Positions 5,574 through 18,094 of a stretch of 36,802 nt of DNA are shown here, one piece after another; positions within the stretch are counted from its first letter, which is position 1, and every line of letters starts with the position of its first letter. The notes beneath the pieces are model-generated. The model had not been told where the DNA came from and searched no databases. It worked only from the letters and a program-made list of their open reading frames with translations. Position numbers and translations under genes: made by a program. The stretch covers positions 1 to 36,802 of the IMG/VR virus record IMGVR_UViG_3300043399_000977. The stretch is one strand, 5' to 3'. The stretch comes from a virus.

Positions 5574-5770
5574 TTCGCACCTCCATTCCATCCGTGTGGG
5601 CGGGTCCGGCGTTGCTGTTTCCGACGCTCCCGCTGAGTTTGATGGCGATGCCACGGGATCCCGTGAGCCCTGGGCCGGAAGTCTCCAGGGAAGCATGGTC
5701 CCCAGGCTCCCATATCGCTCCCCATCATACTCGTCACTACCAGGAGCATGAGTGATTGTTGCCGCCTCAT
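5570..5770 (-). CDS. small basic hypothetical protein
   Basis: A 66-codon frame starts at ATG 5770 with AAGGAGG at ideal spacing. It overlaps the clamp stop codon (ATGA) and ends by an ATGA overlap with the HTH gene. The product is methionine-rich at its N-terminus and arginine-rich at its C-terminus, and no domain is recognised. The competing reading is that the HTH gene starts at GTG 5777 and this segment is its N-terminal extension, which reads as a plausible disordered peptide. Start signals favour the small gene. Confidence 0.4.
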   Translation of the reverse strand: MRRQQSLMLLVVTSMMGSDMGAWGPCFPGDFRPRAHGIPWHRHQTQRERRKQQRRTRPHGWNGGAK

Positions 5771-7212
5771 TCGGCACCTCCTTCCCCGCGCATTGGCATC
5801 AGCACGTATGTAAACTGCGCATCACAGCCGGCCGTCAGAGGGAGCCACGACCGCCAAACCAGAGGCCCCTTGGTTCTCGCATGCCCGATGTCCAGCGTAC
5901 CCGGTCCAGTCCCCGACAGGATCGGCACGTAATCCGGATTAAGCGCGACCCTACAGGGCTTTTCGACCTTAGTCTCCTCCGAGATCACCTGGACCACCTC
6001 AGTCCACCGTCCCCGATCCGCCTCAACCCCCTCAACGCGCACAATGCGGCCCGAAAGCTGCAGCTGCACAGAGTTGTTCTTCCCGCCAGCCAGCACCTCC
6101 GCGCGGCCGACGGCCTCCACGAGGGCCTCGATGTCCAGCACGACAAACTCGCCGCTCAACTCGGGAACCACGTTTTGCCATGCGGGATACTCCCCGTCGA
6201 CCACCTTGCCCCACACCTTGAATCCTTCCTCGCAGAACCACATCGCAACAACGCGAGGAGGTTTCCCACCGGGCTCCGGCACCGTCACAATGCCGAAGCC
6301 GGCTGCCGTCTTTTCGTTGCCGCTCAGCGTCGACAGGAGGAATGCTACCAGGGCATTCGGCGCGATGACCTTGGCACCTTGCTCTGACTTCCAGAAACCC
6401 AGCAGATCGCCGAACCCAACCCAGCTACCATCGAGAGCCTGCACAGTCGTGGCGATCGTTGCCAGCCGCTTCCCATCCGTCGCCACCATCCGCAGCTCCA
6501 TGACCTCATCGCGGCCCGGCCCACCAGCGCTTTTCATATCAAAGCAGACCCCATTGAGCACGTACCGCGTCGAGTCCGCCGACGTTGCCCCATAAATCGC
6601 CTTCAGCATTTTCTTCAGGGCCCGACTCGGGAAGTAGACCCCCTGCCCGTCCACCTTCGGCATGGGCGGCATGTCATCTACGCTAAGGACGCACAGCTCA
6701 GCGAACCAGGTCTCACTCCTGATCCCGAGCATCACCCCTCCGCCGATGGTGCCAATGCTGATGGTCTCACCCGCACGGTCCAGCAGCTTCCCGAAGGCGG
6801 CCGCCTCGACGGCCACGCCGCCACTCCCAGCCAACTGGACCCCGTCGTCCTCCGCCACCTTCTGCTCAGCATGCACATCCAGAGATGTCGCATGCAGGCG
6901 CAGGCCGAAGTCATCCCAGATCAGCCCCACGCACCGCAGGATCGGGAGCGCGTTGTTCCGGCCCGCCGCTTTGCCGACCCGCTGGAATGCCGCACGCAGC
7001 AGAGCCGTGGGCCCAGCCCAGCTCAGCACATCATCCGACTGCCCAGCGCCTTCTGCCGCCGCCTTCGGCGCCCGCTTCCGCTTCGGCTTTTCCGGCTCCG
7101 CAGCCGCCTCGGCAGGTTCCGCATCAGCCGCTTCGACGGGTCCCGCTTCAGCCACCTGGGCCGCTGCAGCGATTTCCGCCTTCCGTGCTTCGTCATCAGT
7201 GATCTCAGTCAT
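5767..7212 (-). CDS. dnaN-like: DnaN-like DNA polymerase sliding clamp
   Basis: The 481-residue protein has an alanine-, lysine- and proline-rich N-terminal extension of about 65 residues, then a beta-clamp. Typical clamp signatures follow in order: NALPIL near the first domain; RLHATSLDV; FPSRALKKML, with YVLNGVCF and MVATDGKRLA in the second domain; DGEYPAWQNVVP in the third; and the C-terminal end YVLMPMRG, matching the VMPMRL end of bacterial clamps. It would form a ring on DNA that holds polymerase. No polymerase is encoded in the window, so it probably serves the host polymerase. A phage-encoded clamp of this class is uncommon. The N-terminal extension is unlike host DnaN. Confidence 0.85.
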   Translation of the reverse strand: MTEITDDEARKAEIAAAAQVAEAGPVEAADAEPAEAAAEPEKPKRKRAPKAAAEGAGQSDDVLSWAGPTALLRAAFQRVGKAAGRNNALPILRCVGLIWDDFGLRLHATSLDVHAEQKVAEDDGVQLAGSGGVAVEAAAFGKLLDRAGETISIGTIGGGVMLGIRSETWFAELCVLSVDDMPPMPKVDGQGVYFPSRALKKMLKAIYGATSADSTRYVLNGVCFDMKSAGGPGRDEVMELRMVATDGKRLATIATTVQALDGSWVGFGDLLGFWKSEQGAKVIAPNALVAFLLSTLSGNEKTAAGFGIVTVPEPGGKPPRVVAMWFCEEGFKVWGKVVDGEYPAWQNVVPELSGEFVVLDIEALVEAVGRAEVLAGGKNNSVQLQLSGRIVRVEGVEADRGRWTEVVQVISEETKVEKPCRVALNPDYVPILSGTGPGTLDIGHARTKGPLVWRSWLPLTAGCDAQFTYVLMPMRGEGGAE

Positions 7213-7262
7213 ATCGTCGTTTGTTTTCGTTGGTTTGGTGGGCTCGGATTGAGCCCGTAAAA
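7213..7262 (-). promoter_or_regulatory. hairpin plus ACCAAACCAA leader before the clamp gene
   Basis: This 50-base gap is one of few in the early operon. On the minus strand it reads hairpin GGGCTC-5-GAGCCC (7240-7256), then ACCAAACCAA, then an A-rich stretch to the ATG. There is no Shine-Dalgarno sequence. The same hairpin-plus-CCAAACCAA arrangement precedes the gene at 10253, so it is probably a translation or processing signal rather than chance. Confidence 0.45.
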
Positions 7263-8105
7263 TCAAATCCCCTGCACACTCCGCAGGCCCTCCCCGGCCC
7301 GGGCTCCCGCCGCCCGCATCAGCCGCTTCCGCCTCATCTGGATCGCCTGCCTCGAGACCCCGAGCGCCCCGGCGAGTTCCGCATTGTTCCGCCATGGGCT
7401 GCCAGCGCTGCCCAGAAACGTGTGGATCAGCGCGGCCAGCCGGGCCGAAATCTCCCGCGGGTCCACCACCGCAGCATCCAGCTCCATCCGCTCGATCTGC
7501 AGATGCCTCCGCGGATCCCGGGAAAACGACCCCTTCGGCCGCTCGCCGGCCGGAATGATCCGCCGCACCCGCGCCTCGCCCCATGCGAGGACGGCCGCTC
7601 CGCCTGCATCCCTCACCACCACTCCCCGGGCCCTCCACTCCACATGCCGCCCATCCCTCAGCCACACTTCACCAGGGCCTCGCATGTCGACCCACTGCGC
7701 ATCGTCATCGATCGGCACTCGCGCCAGAAACTTCCACGCCCAGCGCTCCTGCAGCAGGCCAGTCCGCAGGTACTCGATCACCCGGAGGGCCTCGGCCCGC
7801 TCCGCCAGCGTCGGATCAGCCGTCGCACCGCTCGACACCGCCAGCTTCAGCGCCGCCTCATCGGCCGCCGCCCAATCAACCGTGATCGCCCCCACCGAAT
7901 TCCCCTGGCGAAGATCGCCCACCACAGCCTGCTGCGCCTCATACCGCCGAGCCCGCTGCCAGCGCCGATGCAGTTCCGGCAGCCGCTCCAGCGTCTCCTC
8001 CGGCACCCCGCCAGCCAGAGCCTCCTCGATGACATCCCATCGATCGCCCGCGGCCCGGCGGCCGTCGACGTACTCGCAGATCGCATCGAGTTGCTCCTTC
8101 GTCAT
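7263..8105 (-). CDS. hypothetical protein with C-terminal HTH
   Basis: The 280-residue protein starts MTKEQLDAICEYVDGRRAAG with an ATGA overlap to the HNH gene. The N-terminal two thirds are charged, helical and unrecognised. Near the C-terminus, NNAELAGALGVSRQAIQMRRKRLM looks like a helix-turn-helix (key pattern: A-E-L-A, G-V-S-R-Q-A-I). It precedes the clamp gene, so a replication initiator or an early regulator is possible. No catalytic motif is visible. Confidence 0.5.
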   Translation of the reverse strand: MTKEQLDAICEYVDGRRAAGDRWDVIEEALAGGVPEETLERLPELHRRWQRARRYEAQQAVVGDLRQGNSVGAITVDWAAADEAALKLAVSSGATADPTLAERAEALRVIEYLRTGLLQERWAWKFLARVPIDDDAQWVDMRGPGEVWLRDGRHVEWRARGVVVRDAGGAAVLAWGEARVRRIIPAGERPKGSFSRDPRRHLQIERMELDAAVVDPREISARLAALIHTFLGSAGSPWRNNAELAGALGVSRQAIQMRRKRLMRAAGARAGEGLRSVQGI

Positions 8106-10414: not shown

Positions 10415-11302
10415 TTATCCGTCCGCTCCCTCCTCCTGCAGAATCCACTCCCACTGGCTCTCCCGCGCGGCGTTGCGCTTCCGGCACAGCCACACGTGCC
10501 CGCACAGCGTCATCTCATGCCCCTCCCAATGCCTCCGGCACAGCGCCCCCAGCCGGGTCTCAGCTGCCCGGCCAGTCAGATCCCCAAGGCAGCGCCCCTC
10601 CCACCCCGCCGACCGCGCCGCCTTCACCATCTCCCGCAGGGTAATATGGTATCCAAACCCACCAAGAGGCTTGCCATTCAGCCGCCCCTCCAAAGGCCTC
10701 ACTCCATTCCGCCGCAGCTTCTCGGCGATCCCATGCTCCGCCAGCTGCTGCATCTCTTCCGCCTCCTCATCGGCCACGGCCGCCCGGCTTTCCTGCACCA
10801 ACCCACGGACCGCAGCCCCAGCCGCATCCACCACCCGCCGCCCACCCAGCTGCGCCCACCCAGACGCCAATGCCGCCAGCACACGCGCCCGGTCGATCTC
10901 CACCGTGCCAGCCATCACTCCCCGGGCCGCTTCCAGCATCAAGCCGCGCCATTCCTCCGCGGATCCCGTCCGGGCAGCGCCGGTCGAATACCGACCCGTC
11001 TTCCGGATCGCCGGAAGGACTTCCCGGACAACCCATGACTTGAAGCGCTCAGCCGATGGCTTCCGGGATTGGAAGATCATCCGGTACAGCCCAGGCTCAC
11101 TGATGATCGTGAGCCGCTGCGGGCCGCCAAGGGTGTAACCAGTAGTTACACCCTTTTCTTCGGCTGGTAATCCCTCGAGCGTCCGGCGCACATTCAGAAG
11201 CCCCAGAGCTTGCCCAACGTCGGATGCCACAAACCATGACTCTCCAGCCTGTGGGAGCACACGCACCGCGACACCTTCGAACTGGTAGCTCGACAACTCC
11301 AT
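10415..11302 (-). CDS. Bro-N family antirepressor-like protein
   Basis: The 295-residue protein has a Bro-N domain in its first 105 residues. It begins with a strand region (YQFEGVAVRVL), then WFVASDVGQALGL, then SEPGLYRMIFQSRKPSAERF and WVVREVLPAIRKTGRY. These are the standard motifs of phage antirepressors and BRO proteins, which bind DNA. The C-terminal 190 residues are helical with a cysteine- and tryptophan-rich end (LCRRHWEGHEMTLCGHVWLC). It follows the RHH gene by one base, so both are expressed together from the immunity region. I infer a role in switching from lysogeny to lysis. Confidence 0.8.
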   Translation of the reverse strand: MELSSYQFEGVAVRVLPQAGESWFVASDVGQALGLLNVRRTLEGLPAEEKGVTTGYTLGGPQRLTIISEPGLYRMIFQSRKPSAERFKSWVVREVLPAIRKTGRYSTGAARTGSAEEWRGLMLEAARGVMAGTVEIDRARVLAALASGWAQLGGRRVVDAAGAAVRGLVQESRAAVADEEAEEMQQLAEHGIAEKLRRNGVRPLEGRLNGKPLGGFGYHITLREMVKAARSAGWEGRCLGDLTGRAAETRLGALCRRHWEGHEMTLCGHVWLCRKRNAARESQWEWILQEEGADG

Positions 11303-11303
11303 C

Positions 11304-11498
11304 TCAGGCGGCCGGAAGAATTGAGCGGATGGCAGACAGAATGAGCGACTCAGGCTGCACCCCCTGCTCACGCGCCAGCAGCTGGAGTTGCGACAGTTCT
11401 TCGACCGTCAGCGACGGACGAAGAGCGATCTCGAGCTTGACCGTGGTCGGCAGCTCAAGCGGGGCTGGCTGGATGATTTGATCGGCTGGTGTTGTCAT
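11304..11498 (-). CDS. ribbon-helix-helix (Arc/CopG-like) regulator
   Basis: The 64-residue protein has a beta-strand (VKLEIALR, 20-27) followed by two helices (LTVEELSQLQLLAREQG and PESLILSAIRSIL), the layout of RHH repressors that bind DNA as dimers through the strand. It is the first gene of the leftward early operon. Its start codon lies inside one of three 15-bp operator-like sites, so it is probably repressed by the divergent HTH protein and may bind the same sites. Its C-terminal part resembles that of the HTH protein. By position it is Cro-like. Confidence 0.65.
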   Translation of the reverse strand: MTTPADQIIQPAPLELPTTVKLEIALRPSLTVEELSQLQLLAREQGVQPESLILSAIRSILPAA

Positions 11499-11564
11499 TT
11501 GGAATTTCCCCCACTCAATCATTCCAAATCGCAATGCGCAAGAATAAAAATTGCAATTTGGAAT
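11491..11564. promoter_or_regulatory. three-operator immunity control region
   Basis: Three near-identical 15-bp sites lie between divergent regulators. ATTGCAATTTGGAAT is at 11550-11564, the same with one change is inverted at 11521-11535, and GTTGTCATTTGGAAT is at 11491-11505. Start-to-start spacing is 30 and 29 bp, about three helical turns, so bound dimers would lie on one face of the DNA. The leftmost site covers the RHH start codon. The layout recalls the lambda OR region with its three operators. Exact promoters were not assigned. Confidence 0.7.
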
Positions 11565-11584
11565 TTTCCCGTCAGCCTGCACGC

Positions 11585-11992
11585 ATGACCAATGACACAT
11601 TCCGCCGGATCCAGACCGCCCTCGGGCTGTCTGGCCGCGAGCTGGCCGAAAAGCTTGGAGTCAAACCCCCATCAGTTTCACGATGGCGCGAAGACACCGA
11701 GATCCCGGATTACATCGCCAACCTCATGCAGTTCCTTGAAGCCGAGGCGACTGGCAAGATGCAGATCCCCCTCTCTCTATCGGAGATGATTGGCCTTTCC
11801 CGCGCCGCCGAGCACCGAGGATTGACCGTCGAGGCCTTGCTGCTCCAAATCATTCGCGGAGTGATACGCCAGCCTACATCCTACACCGCAGCCGCCGCCG
11901 AGGCCGCCGAGCAGCCCACCCCGAAAGCCGCCGAACCGATCATCTACAAGGGCCCCCAGAGCCTCGCGAAACCACGGACGGACCCCCACTGA
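11585..11992 (+). CDS. HTH repressor with RHH-like C-terminal segment (CI-like by position)
   Basis: The 135-residue protein has an N-terminal Xre-type HTH (LGLSGRELAEKLGVKPPSVS, residues 13-32). A second segment at 58-95 (KMQIPLSLSEMIGL ... EALLLQIIRGVI) looks like a strand and two helices and aligns with the RHH protein encoded divergently. An alanine-, glutamate- and proline-rich tail follows. It is the only regulator on the plus strand, faces the early operon and ends at a bidirectional terminator, so it is the best repressor candidate. No self-cleaving peptidase domain is present, so induction would not follow the LexA/CI route. Confidence 0.65.
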   Translation: MTNDTFRRIQTALGLSGRELAEKLGVKPPSVSRWREDTEIPDYIANLMQFLEAEATGKMQIPLSLSEMIGLSRAAEHRGLTVEALLLQIIRGVIRQPTSYTAAAAEAAEQPTPKAAEPIIYKGPQSLAKPRTDPH

Positions 11993-12010
11993 TCTCCTCC
12001 ATCAGGACGC

Positions 12011-12048
12011 AAAAAACCCCGCAGAGCCACCAGCCCTGCGGGGTTTTT
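12011..12048. terminator. bidirectional terminator between convergent genes
   Basis: CCCCGCAG (12017-12024) pairs with CTGCGGGG (12036-12043). A run of six A precedes the stem and five T follow it, so it can stop transcription from both sides. It separates the repressor gene from the convergent secreted-protein gene. Confidence 0.85.
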
Positions 12049-12070
12049 CGTTCCGTGGCATCATCTTCGA

Positions 12071-12643
12071 TCACTTTTGCACATGCACCACTTTGGTGAT
12101 CGCGATGATCACCTGCACCCCGTGCGCCACCTTGGTATTCCCCGGCTCAAGGAAAAAGTCCTGCATCTGATTGATGTGGGACTTCCCGGTCGGGATGGCT
12201 TCAGCCAGACTCTCCGCAGCGTAAAAGCACTGTTCGCGGCCACTTACCACCTCCCCCTCGGCATTGAACCACGCCAGCTTCCCCCAGATCTCCGCCACGG
12301 GATACTTCCCAGTCACCTCGAAGCCGAAGACGTAAGCCGGCACATCCTTTCCCTGCGCAGTCCGGCCCGGCTTTACGCCCGAGTGCGTGACCCGAATCCC
12401 CCAGGGCAGCTGCACCCGCTTGTAGTGCTCTTCCCGCGCCGACTCCAGCACCGTCCGCAGCAGCTTCACATTGGGATCCCCACTGATGCCCAGCGCACCG
12501 TCATCGAACGCACCCTCCACTCCCAGCTCAGTGTTTGCGGCTTCCATTTCCTGCAATGCTTTCTTGAGGGCCAGATCGCCCTTCTGCGCATGCACCGGAG
12601 CCAGCCACAAGATCGACGCCATCAGGATCAACAGAGTTCTCAT
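12071..12643 (-). CDS. secreted protein, probable lysogenic-conversion (moron) gene
   Basis: The 190-residue product starts with a clear Sec signal peptide (MRTLLILMASILWLAPVHAQ, cut probably after AHA or HAQ). The mature part has a helical start and a beta-rich domain (VQLPWGIRVTHSG ... VPAYVFGFEVTGKYP ... EIWGKLAWFNAEGEV). It is a single-gene unit with its own upstream gap and terminator, next to the repressor and outside the early operon. That is the usual place for genes expressed from the prophage. The export signal suggests it changes the lysogen's envelope or periplasm. No family is recognised. Confidence 0.6.
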   Translation of the reverse strand: MRTLLILMASILWLAPVHAQKGDLALKKALQEMEAANTELGVEGAFDDGALGISGDPNVKLLRTVLESAREEHYKRVQLPWGIRVTHSGVKPGRTAQGKDVPAYVFGFEVTGKYPVAEIWGKLAWFNAEGEVVSGREQCFYAAESLAEAIPTGKSHINQMQDFFLEPGNTKVAHGVQVIIAITKVVHVQK

Positions 12644-15681: not shown

Positions 15682-16082
15682 GGTTGCAGGCCGGGTGGGT
15701 TCAGCAGCTCATTTGCCCGCGCTCGCGTAATCAGCCCGGTGGCGACGAGCGCCTCCATCCCTGCCTGCAGTGTTGGGTTGTCGGAATGCAGCTCCGAATC
15801 CCAGTAGCCCAGGGTGAGGGCCAGCATTTTGATTTGAGGATCGCTGCAGCCGGCGACAGCGAGCCGTTCGGCGTCGGTGAACGCTGCCCAGAAGTCAGCC
15901 GCGCTGCGCCACACCCTGCGCACGGGCGGAGGAGTCGGAGCGTACTGGATGCCCGCAGCGAGGGCATCAGACAGCAGCATTACAGTGGACCCATCCGGTT
16001 GGCTCCAAGGCGTAACTCCATCCCATAAAACTGTGTTTACAATAAGATTTTCTTCTATTACCGCGTAATCGTCCTTATTCAT
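15678..16082 (-). CDS. tail fibre assembly/accessory protein
   Basis: The 134-residue protein begins [17 protein letters not shown], then [11 protein letters not shown], the typical opening of small accessory proteins encoded behind tail fibres. The C-terminal part ([20 protein letters not shown]) is helical. It probably helps to fold or trimerise the fibre encoded just upstream, with which it overlaps by ATGA. The first 25 or so codons are AT-rich (ATA, AAT, CTT, ATT, TTA) and the rest are GC-rich, so a recombination joint seems to lie within the gene. Confidence 0.7.
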
Positions 16083-18094
16083 AGATACGTAATGACCTGC
16101 ACCAGCCCGGCCCCACCGTTCCCGCCACTTCCGCTGAGAGTCGTTCCAGCTCCGCCCCCGCCGCCACCGCCACCAGGGAATCCTCCGGCTCCTCCGGCTC
16201 CGCCCGTCGTTGTCGTTCCTGCTCCGCCTCCGGCTCCCCCTAGTCCGACCGGGAAATTATTGACTCCGACCCCCGGCGAGCCCCCGCTTTGGCCAGCCGA
16301 CCCAGCCGCTCCCGCGTTGCCGCCAATAGTCTGAGTTTGGGGCATGCAAGACTCCAATCCTATGCGCATGGATGCCCCGCGGCCCCCATTGTATCCGGTA
16401 TTTGAGGAGTTGATTCCGCCACCCGCGCCACCGCTGCCGGGAATTGGGGCGGAAATAGCAGTCGGAGCCGCAGGCGCTCCGGAAACGCTACTACTACCCC
16501 CAGATACACTAGCAAACAGCTGGAATAAAATGACATTTACGGACGCCGCCCCGGCACCTCCAGCGCCGCCTGTTGCGGTACCGCCAGTGCCCCCGGCTCC
16601 GCCTAGCGCAGTTAGCCCGGCAAAACTTGAGTTCCCACCAGGGCCGCCGTTGTTGCCTAATGATCCCGCGCTTACGCCTCCAGCCCCGGTTCCGCCAGCG
16701 CCAACAGTCACGGGCTCTGTCGCACCTAATCTGTTAGACATCAAATTGTACTCTAGTATCCCGCCACCCGCCCCGCCTCCTCCACCAAAACGGTCTCCAG
16801 TCGCATCACAGCGCCCGGAGGCCCCGCCCCCTCCTCCAGCAACGATCCGGACAAAAACTGGTCTAGGCGAGGCTGGCGACGGGTTGTTCCAGGTTCCGTT
16901 TGCTTCAAAAGTTTGGACGTTGATGGTTGACCCACCTCCAGATCCCGCAGCCCCCTGCGGGATGCCGAAATCAAAGACGGCTGCCGCGGCCGTGCCGGAA
17001 TTGGTTACGGTCGCTTGCGATCCAGGAGCCAATGTTGTGACCGTTCCGATGGCAATGGTGGCAGCCGCCCCGGCCGGTCCCGCCGGGCCGGCGGCTCCGG
17101 TCACCCCCTGCGGGCCTGCCGGACCTTGTGGGCCGGTCGCTCCTGTTGCGCCTGTCAGTCCTTGCGGGCCTTGAGGGCCTTGCGGGCCAGTTGCCCCAGT
17201 TGGCCCGGTCGCGCCAGTCAACCCCTGAGGGCCTTGTGGGCCGGTCAACCCGGTCGCGCCAGTCAACCCCTGAGGGCCCTGAGGCCCGGCCGGGCCCTGC
17301 GCGCCTGCGGTTCCTGCCGGGCCCTGCGGACCGGCGGGCCCGACGGGTCCGACGGGTCCGATCATCGAAACCCCTGCCGGCCATGCGCCTGCGGCCTTTG
17401 GGCCGTAGATGAGCCAGCTGGTCGTGTTGACCCAGAAATCGCCCATAGCTCCAACGGCATTGGATGGAGCACCTGCGCCGCTGAGGATGGTGTTGCCACC
17501 GCCCGGGCCGGTGCCTCCTTGGAAGAGGGCCCAGACCGTCTGCCAGTCAGTTCCGGTGCCCGGCTGCGTAGCGGCCGATGACGTGTGGTCGGAGACGGCC
17601 AGATAGATTGCGCCGCCAGCCCCGACGAGGTGGTTGGTCTTGTACGCGACGGCCGTCGCCCATGGGGAGCCGCCGACATCAGCCAGGAGCGGGACCGATG
17701 GAGGAGGCGCGGTGGCCTGACTGATGGCATGCCATCCGAGGTCGACGTCGTACCCACCGAAGGTGTAGAGGACTGTCGATCCCTCCGCCGCATAGACGAC
17801 AAGCCAAAGCTTGCGGACGCCCTCGGGAGGCGTCGGTTGATTCATCTGCGCGGAGGAGAACTCGAGGACCCATTCCGTCTGGATCGGCGCGGCGGCGGCC
17901 GATACGACCGCGAGCGGGGTCGTGTTGGCACCGACAAATCGCGACGTGTGCAGCTCCGCCTTGAGGACGCAGGGGGCTGCGAGTGTTTCGCCGGCCGCCA
18001 TCGACAGCGTGATCCGCAGCGGATTCGCTGCCGGATGGGCGATCTTCCCGGAGTCGGTGCGGGCGTAGCTGATGGCGATCGGAAAGTTCCTCAT
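16079..18094 (-). CDS. tail fibre with collagen-like stalk and glycine-rich tip
   Basis: The 671-residue protein is modular. Residues 1-135 form a beta-rich attachment part. Residues 140-190 ([25 protein letters not shown]) resemble a CBM5/12-like sugar-binding module. Residues 245-343 are Gly-X-Y collagen repeats ([13 protein letters not shown]), which would form a trimeric stalk. A short beta part follows, and residues from about 415 to the end are extremely glycine-rich (GAGGTGGTATGGAGGAG), like glycine-rich receptor-binding tips of other tail fibres. From about codon 390 the codons turn AT-richer, suggesting a swapped tip. It should bind the host surface. Confidence 0.85.

Follow-up and report, generated by a model that had tools for sequence, protein, structure and literature searches.

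A divergent helix-turn-helix repressor and a small protein resembling its C-terminal segment as a candidate lysis-lysogeny switch in a viral genome

The DNA analyzed here, hereafter the window, is a viral record of 36,802 bases from IMG/VR in which nearly all of the larger genes that could be recognised run leftward. The gene of the putative repressor runs rightward (11585-11992, + strand) and encodes 135 residues, in which a helix-turn-helix (HTH), assigned by a Pfam HTH_3 match and the predicted structure, is followed by a ribbon-helix-helix (RHH)-like segment. We placed its start at the ATG at 11585 and not at the GTG (11489) that opens the mechanical ORF; the relative P0004 begins at the same residue. 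On the other strand, the first gene of a leftward operon (11304-11498, - strand) encodes a free RHH-like protein of 64 residues. The gene of a Bro-N protein of 295 residues (10415-11302, - strand) starts one base past its stop codon, the junction reading TGAGATG. To the right of the repressor gene, positions 12005-12052 form a strong hairpin flanked on both sides by T/A runs (-26.6 kcal/mol, z -5.65, the + strand only having been folded), a candidate two-way terminator between the repressor gene and the leftward genes on its right. A promoter scan did not find any sigma-70-like site. Also to the right of the repressor, the 190-residue product of 12071-12643 (- strand) has a signal-like start and no Pfam match. 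It is 44% identical to a protein that adjoins the corresponding switch of two related records, G005 and G006, and when it was used as query in a viral scan, these known records were returned and nothing else.

The relatives of the window are 14 viral records, many of them fragments, that were gathered by their terminase (66-98% identity). With the repressor profile, the system was recovered in 4 of them (G001, G011, G005 and G006) and, the G005 and G006 repressors being identical, three distinct systems are available besides that of the window. Each of them has a small divergent ORF at the position expected for the free protein. The divergent arrangement given in the preliminary description is thus conserved wherever an immunity region was seen, in four distinct systems (window, G001, G011 and G005/G006). 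Nine of the other records, mostly short, gave no match to the repressor profile. The remaining one, G014, lacks an HTH_3 match and is not counted as a system, the 9 kb read having shown no recognisable divergent pair; it encodes an RHH-like protein of 73 residues (L049:1826-2047, - strand; RHH_1 E 0.096) away from any divergent repressor seen. The terminase of G001 (L003) is 98% identical to that of the window, against 69% for the repressor and 53% for the free protein; such a divergence of repressor, free protein and sites beside a nearly invariant terminase is what is expected of a diversifying immunity region. Wider searches were mostly empty: this was the case for the free protein alone (P0001) against viral contigs and for P0005 against phages, while the repressor profile gave a single, HTH-only match among 387 genomes from the phylum to which a Lentisphaerae MAG belongs, and scans of genome contigs returned one distant terminase and no relative of the repressor. 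A match in Nitratiruptor NrS-4 was rejected as a relative, its HTH occupying the C-terminus of a longer protein, which is a different architecture.

Between the two start codons, a 15-base quasi-palindrome is present in three copies. The first, GTTGTCATTTGGAAT (11491-11505, + strand), overlaps the start codon of the free gene; the second, the 15-mer ATTGCGATTTGGAAT, lies at 11521-11535 (- strand); the third, ATTGCAATTTGGAAT (11550-11564, + strand), ends 20 bases upstream of the repressor ATG. When ATTGCAATTTGGAAT was searched in the whole window with up to three mismatches, 5 matches were obtained, all within 11491-11564, for 0.42 expected (0/100 shuffles). A motif-free search for the best three similar 15-mers recovered the same sites (0/200 shuffles) and likewise picked out three sites in G011 (0/200). 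In G001 it returned similarly spaced sites that did not beat the shuffles (61/200), and in G005 sites of irregular spacing (5/200). The site centres are 30 and 29 bp apart in the window, 30 and 31 bp in G001, where the coordinates were moved by hand onto the palindrome, and 29 and 29 bp in G011, that is, about three helical turns. Three such operator-like sites, 29-31 bp apart, are present between the genes in three systems, two of which are supported by the statistics. The sequence of the sites varies between systems with diverged HTHs.

The HTH_3 domain of the repressor scores above the Pfam curated cut-off (26.5 bits versus 23). In the predicted structure, the HTH (residues 1-56) is followed by an extended stretch (about 57-64), two helices (65-78 and 82-90) and a tail of low confidence, the pLDDT of the block 57-90 being 65-77. 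The structure matches of the model are HTH proteins and cover residues 1-60; with Aca2 (7ezy), the HTH superimposes at Z 9.8 and 1.2 Å over 55 residues. No Peptidase_S24 domain, the CI/LexA-type autoproteolysis domain, was matched in the window repressor with Pfam, which agrees with the preliminary description of a repressor devoid of such a domain. The same description had proposed an RHH fold for the C-terminal part, to be sought by a profile search. Pattern and homology suggest a strand-helix-helix there; the search itself did not yield any significant match, no Pfam or NCBIfam profile calling an RHH in this region. By eye, an alternating hydrophobic strand precedes helix A in all four viral repressors and, together with the homology to the free protein described below, it leads us to consider the C-terminal part of the repressor as RHH-like.

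The free protein is predicted to be extended over residues 19-31 and helical over 32-45 and 49-60 (model pLDDT 67). Foldseek matches to this model are weak (best E 0.99), and the top rows are CopG, ParG, PutA, Arc and antitoxins, which we take to be RHH chains. With a second aligner, it superimposes with the RHH of PutA at Z 4.9 and 2.7 Å over 43 residues, covering residues 22-64. The model thus weakly resembles RHH proteins. No RHH match was found for the window free protein in Pfam or NCBIfam, and those of G001 (RHH_5, E 0.019) and G005 (CopG_antitoxin, E 0.0015) remain under the cut-off. No HTH was matched by Pfam in the free proteins of the window and its relatives. The free proteins of the window, G001 and G011 are acidic, with pI values of 4.55, 4.57 and 4.41 and net charges of -3, -4 and -4, respectively; that of G005 has a pI of 6.23 and a net charge of 0. 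For comparison, the pI is 9.98 for P22 Arc and 8.01 for Mnt. This charge is not decisive as to DNA binding, since MetJ is an acidic RHH protein and yet binds DNA.

The segment common to the two proteins corresponds to residues 56-97 of the repressor (11750-11875, + strand). In the window, the Smith-Waterman alignment of residues 14-61 of the free protein with residues 51-94 of the repressor scores 55. This score was reached by 2/2000 shuffles with the whole repressor as target, only the free protein being shuffled, and by 0/2000 against repressor residues 52-105. Plain BLASTP of this pair was non-significant (E 0.59), and the likeness inside the window alone can only be called modest. The relatives provide more. 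In G001, the repressor tail is identical to the free protein at 19 of 32 positions (E 1e-8), a value that may be compared with P22 Arc and Mnt (19/40 identical, E 2e-11). The repressor profile A1 matches the G001 free gene (E 1.4e-6) and the free-protein profile A2 the G001 repressor (E 4.8e-8). Alignment by hhalign of the three free proteins with the three repressors of the window, G001 and G011 gave E 6.2e-8 over 33 columns, and both G001 segments are matched by phrog_5333 (E 2.2e-4 and 0.005), a family of unknown function. Both profiles match designed helical repeats (dTor, PDB) better than any natural RHH, and an idealised helix-turn-helix composition could for this reason account for part of the likeness. 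Against P22 Arc, hhalign of the profiles was weak (E 0.09 and 0.04), though the helices are in register. Altogether, these comparisons show homology of the two segments in the window, G001 and G011, and bear out the earlier view of an Xre-type HTH joined to a segment like the divergent free protein. On the other hand, the free protein of G005 has no detectable similarity to its own repressor (1476/2000 shuffles reach the score). The window free protein scores 55 with its own repressor and 61 with that of G001; own-pair similarity not exceeding cross-pair similarity, there is no sign of pair-specific co-evolution.

On this basis, we tentatively favor, without going as far as to hold it for established, that the free protein is an antirepressor matched to a domain of the repressor, with which it would form mixed dimers in a lysis-lysogeny switch. 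The repressor would dimerise via its C-terminal RHH-like domain, and its N-terminal HTH would bind the three quasi-palindromic sites between the divergent promoters, whose positions are themselves presumed. Once bound, it would keep the leftward early operon silent, and that operon would begin with a gene for a free copy of the repressor's dimerisation domain, minus the HTH. Upon firing of the operon, the free protein would pair with repressor chains and give mixed dimers with a single HTH; these would lose the operators, and the lytic state would be locked. Mixed dimers are a sensible prediction, and a domain-matched antagonist is the most economical reading. The preliminary description had considered mixed dimers and competition for the same operators side by side; we regard the latter as less likely, given that the free proteins are acidic in the window, G001 and G011 and that the sites recovered are of one type. 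It has to be added that the small divergent proteins devoid of similarity to their repressor, that of G005 and those of three Akkermansia phages considered below, are neutral to basic, which counts against the antagonist reading. If mixed dimers do form, the antirepressor logic would be simple, the lytic switch protein being a copy of the dimerisation domain of the repressor, and it would suggest a release route for repressors without a cleavage domain.

A parallel can be drawn with antagonists that are already described. SinI resembles SinR minus its DNA-binding part and blocks it by heterodimerisation, and Mor of phage TP901-1 has a CI-like HTH and binds CI, with no demonstrated high-affinity binding of Mor alone to DNA (PMC5864091 and PMC11149083, respectively, in their available text). 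Such antagonists thus exist. SinR and SinI are alike to the present pair in that an HTH regulator with a C-terminal multimerisation domain is accompanied by a small free protein resembling this domain (PMC5864091, in its accessible part), and a small free protein homologous to the C-terminal domain of the regulator is indeed found in three of our systems and not in G005. They differ in that SinR is a chromosomal biofilm regulator, its domain being described as alpha-helical whereas a strand-helix-helix is predicted here, and in that sinI and sinR form one operon whereas the window pair is divergent; moreover, no SinI-type Pfam domain was matched in the scanned proteins of the window and its relatives. 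The CI/Mor pairs of TP901-1 and phi13 also comprise a small lytic-side protein that has the fold of a part of the repressor and binds it (available text of PMC11149083), but this part is the HTH domain whereas the C-terminal domain is copied here. Qtip, Coi and other small phage antirepressors inactivate CI-type repressors as well; the accessible part of PMC11323111 describes little to no homology among them, unlike the present protein, which would be a paralogue of a repressor domain. A literature search restricted to titles and the beginnings of abstracts, with most subscription papers outside its coverage, did not retrieve truncated or dominant-negative phage repressors, nor any phage in which an HTH-RHH repressor is described beside a free RHH protein encoded divergently.

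A parallel in gene order is found in immI of phage P22 (mnt / arc-ant), where two related small regulators are divergent and an antirepressor gene stands behind the lytic-side one, according to the record annotation and the available text of PMC2629481. This points to another, less probable reading, in which the free protein would be a Cro- or Arc-like homodimeric RHH repressor bound to the same region, where it would turn off its own operon as well as the promoter of the repressor gene, mixed dimers being absent. We consider it unlikely, if worth serious attention. The gene position is that of cro or arc, Arc and Mnt are themselves related RHH proteins encoded divergently (19/40 identical) with separate annotated operators, and the modelled free protein resembles RHH proteins that bind DNA, such as CopG, Arc and PutA. 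However, the acidity of the free proteins in the three homologous systems and the recovery of a single kind of site in the intergenic region led us to prefer an antagonist to a Cro-like role; in addition, Glu and Ala are among the outward residues of the strand, as judged by eye from the alternating pattern, in both the window and G001. The P22 region also differs in several respects: Mnt is devoid of HTH, Ant carries P22_AR_N/C and not Bro-N (BLASTP with the window protein, E 0.6), two operators and the sar RNA are annotated, and the Arc family PF03869 is unmatched by the window proteins and the relatives scanned whereas the Arc and Mnt controls match.

The free protein could also modulate repression or act as a co-repressor, in that mixed dimers or tetramers on a composite site would select the promoter to be repressed, as proposed for TP901-1 CI:Mor in the available text of PMC11149083. 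Besides this precedent, the spacing of the three sites by about three helical turns (29-31 bp) would suit such an assembly, but no composite or half-site was found between the genes, and we judge it improbable. Least probable of all is that the common segment would be a helical dimerisation hairpin instead of an RHH, or a chance likeness between proteins that do not interact: the missing Pfam and NCBIfam RHH matches of the window proteins, the dTor matches and the weak BLASTP of the window pair are in line with it, but it is opposed by the G001 pair (E 1e-8), the cross-profile matches and hhalign (E 6.2e-8), the alternating hydrophobic strand before helix A of the four viral repressors, the phrog_5333 matches to both G001 segments and the structure matches of the free protein, which include the strand (residues 22-64).

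Coming back to the domain-matched antirepressor, one would wonder how far it extends. The HTH of the G005 repressor resembles the one present in the repressors encoded by the Akkermansia phages Chambord, Chantilly and Moulinsart (L065, L066 and L067; Smith-Waterman scores of 89-108; tblastn E 2e-5, 2e-4 and 0.1). By eye, an RHH-like stretch follows the HTH in all three and a small ORF diverges from the repressor gene, the RHH-like parts being unconfirmed by Pfam and NCBIfam profiles. Their small divergent proteins carry net charges of +5, +4 and +1 and have no detectable similarity to their own repressors (1619, 408 and 1866 of 2000 shuffles). A Peptidase_S24 domain is found at the end of the Chambord and Chantilly repressors and is absent from that of Moulinsart. 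For A. muciniphila YL44, the available parts of PMC10197239 and PMC8008629 mark Chambord and Chantilly as belonging to the prophages that Zund et al. induced with mitomycin C; Moulinsart does not bear this mark, though it figures in the list of induced prophages. Presence or absence of S24 thus agrees with the published mitomycin C inducibility in these three prophages, and these three cases suggest that the switch is modular and can acquire SOS control.

A broader and more hesitant hypothesis would be the existence of a class of temperate phages with an HTH+RHH repressor, whose first lytic gene encodes an RHH paralogue dead for DNA binding, in other words the repressor's own dominant-negative subunit. 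It is possible, although we would rather doubt it at present. If it were true, the antagonist would stay functional through a divergence of HTH and operator specificity, and immunity types could change without the antirepressor being rebuilt; an added S24 domain would then give the switch SOS control. Akkermansia prophages would be a place for a testable prediction in a culturable gut bacterium.

The identity of the second leftward gene is less constant. Bro-N is clear in the product of 10415-11302 (64.4 bits for a cut-off of 25.6; phrog_130 Ant, E 1.1e-39), and the preliminary description had supposed that induction might go through this protein. Among the 14 related records, most of which are fragments, Bro-N was found in none (the controls were matched in 6 of 14); we thus consider it as accessory. 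The gene after the free gene encodes the Bro-N protein in the window, is missing in G001 and encodes a coiled-coil-like protein in G011 (L046 2779-3147, + strand) and G005 (L047 220-717, - strand), these two occupying the Bro-N slot and being related (20/37 identical). With 0/14 records and a different second gene or none at the three other distinct loci, Bro-N was rejected as a general inducer. Elsewhere in the window, 16079-18094 (- strand) encodes a protein of 671 residues with long collagen-like GPxGPxG repeats, seen by eye, that is probably a tail fibre, and the middle of the ORF at 5767-7665 (- strand) resembles, by eye, a DNA polymerase sliding clamp.
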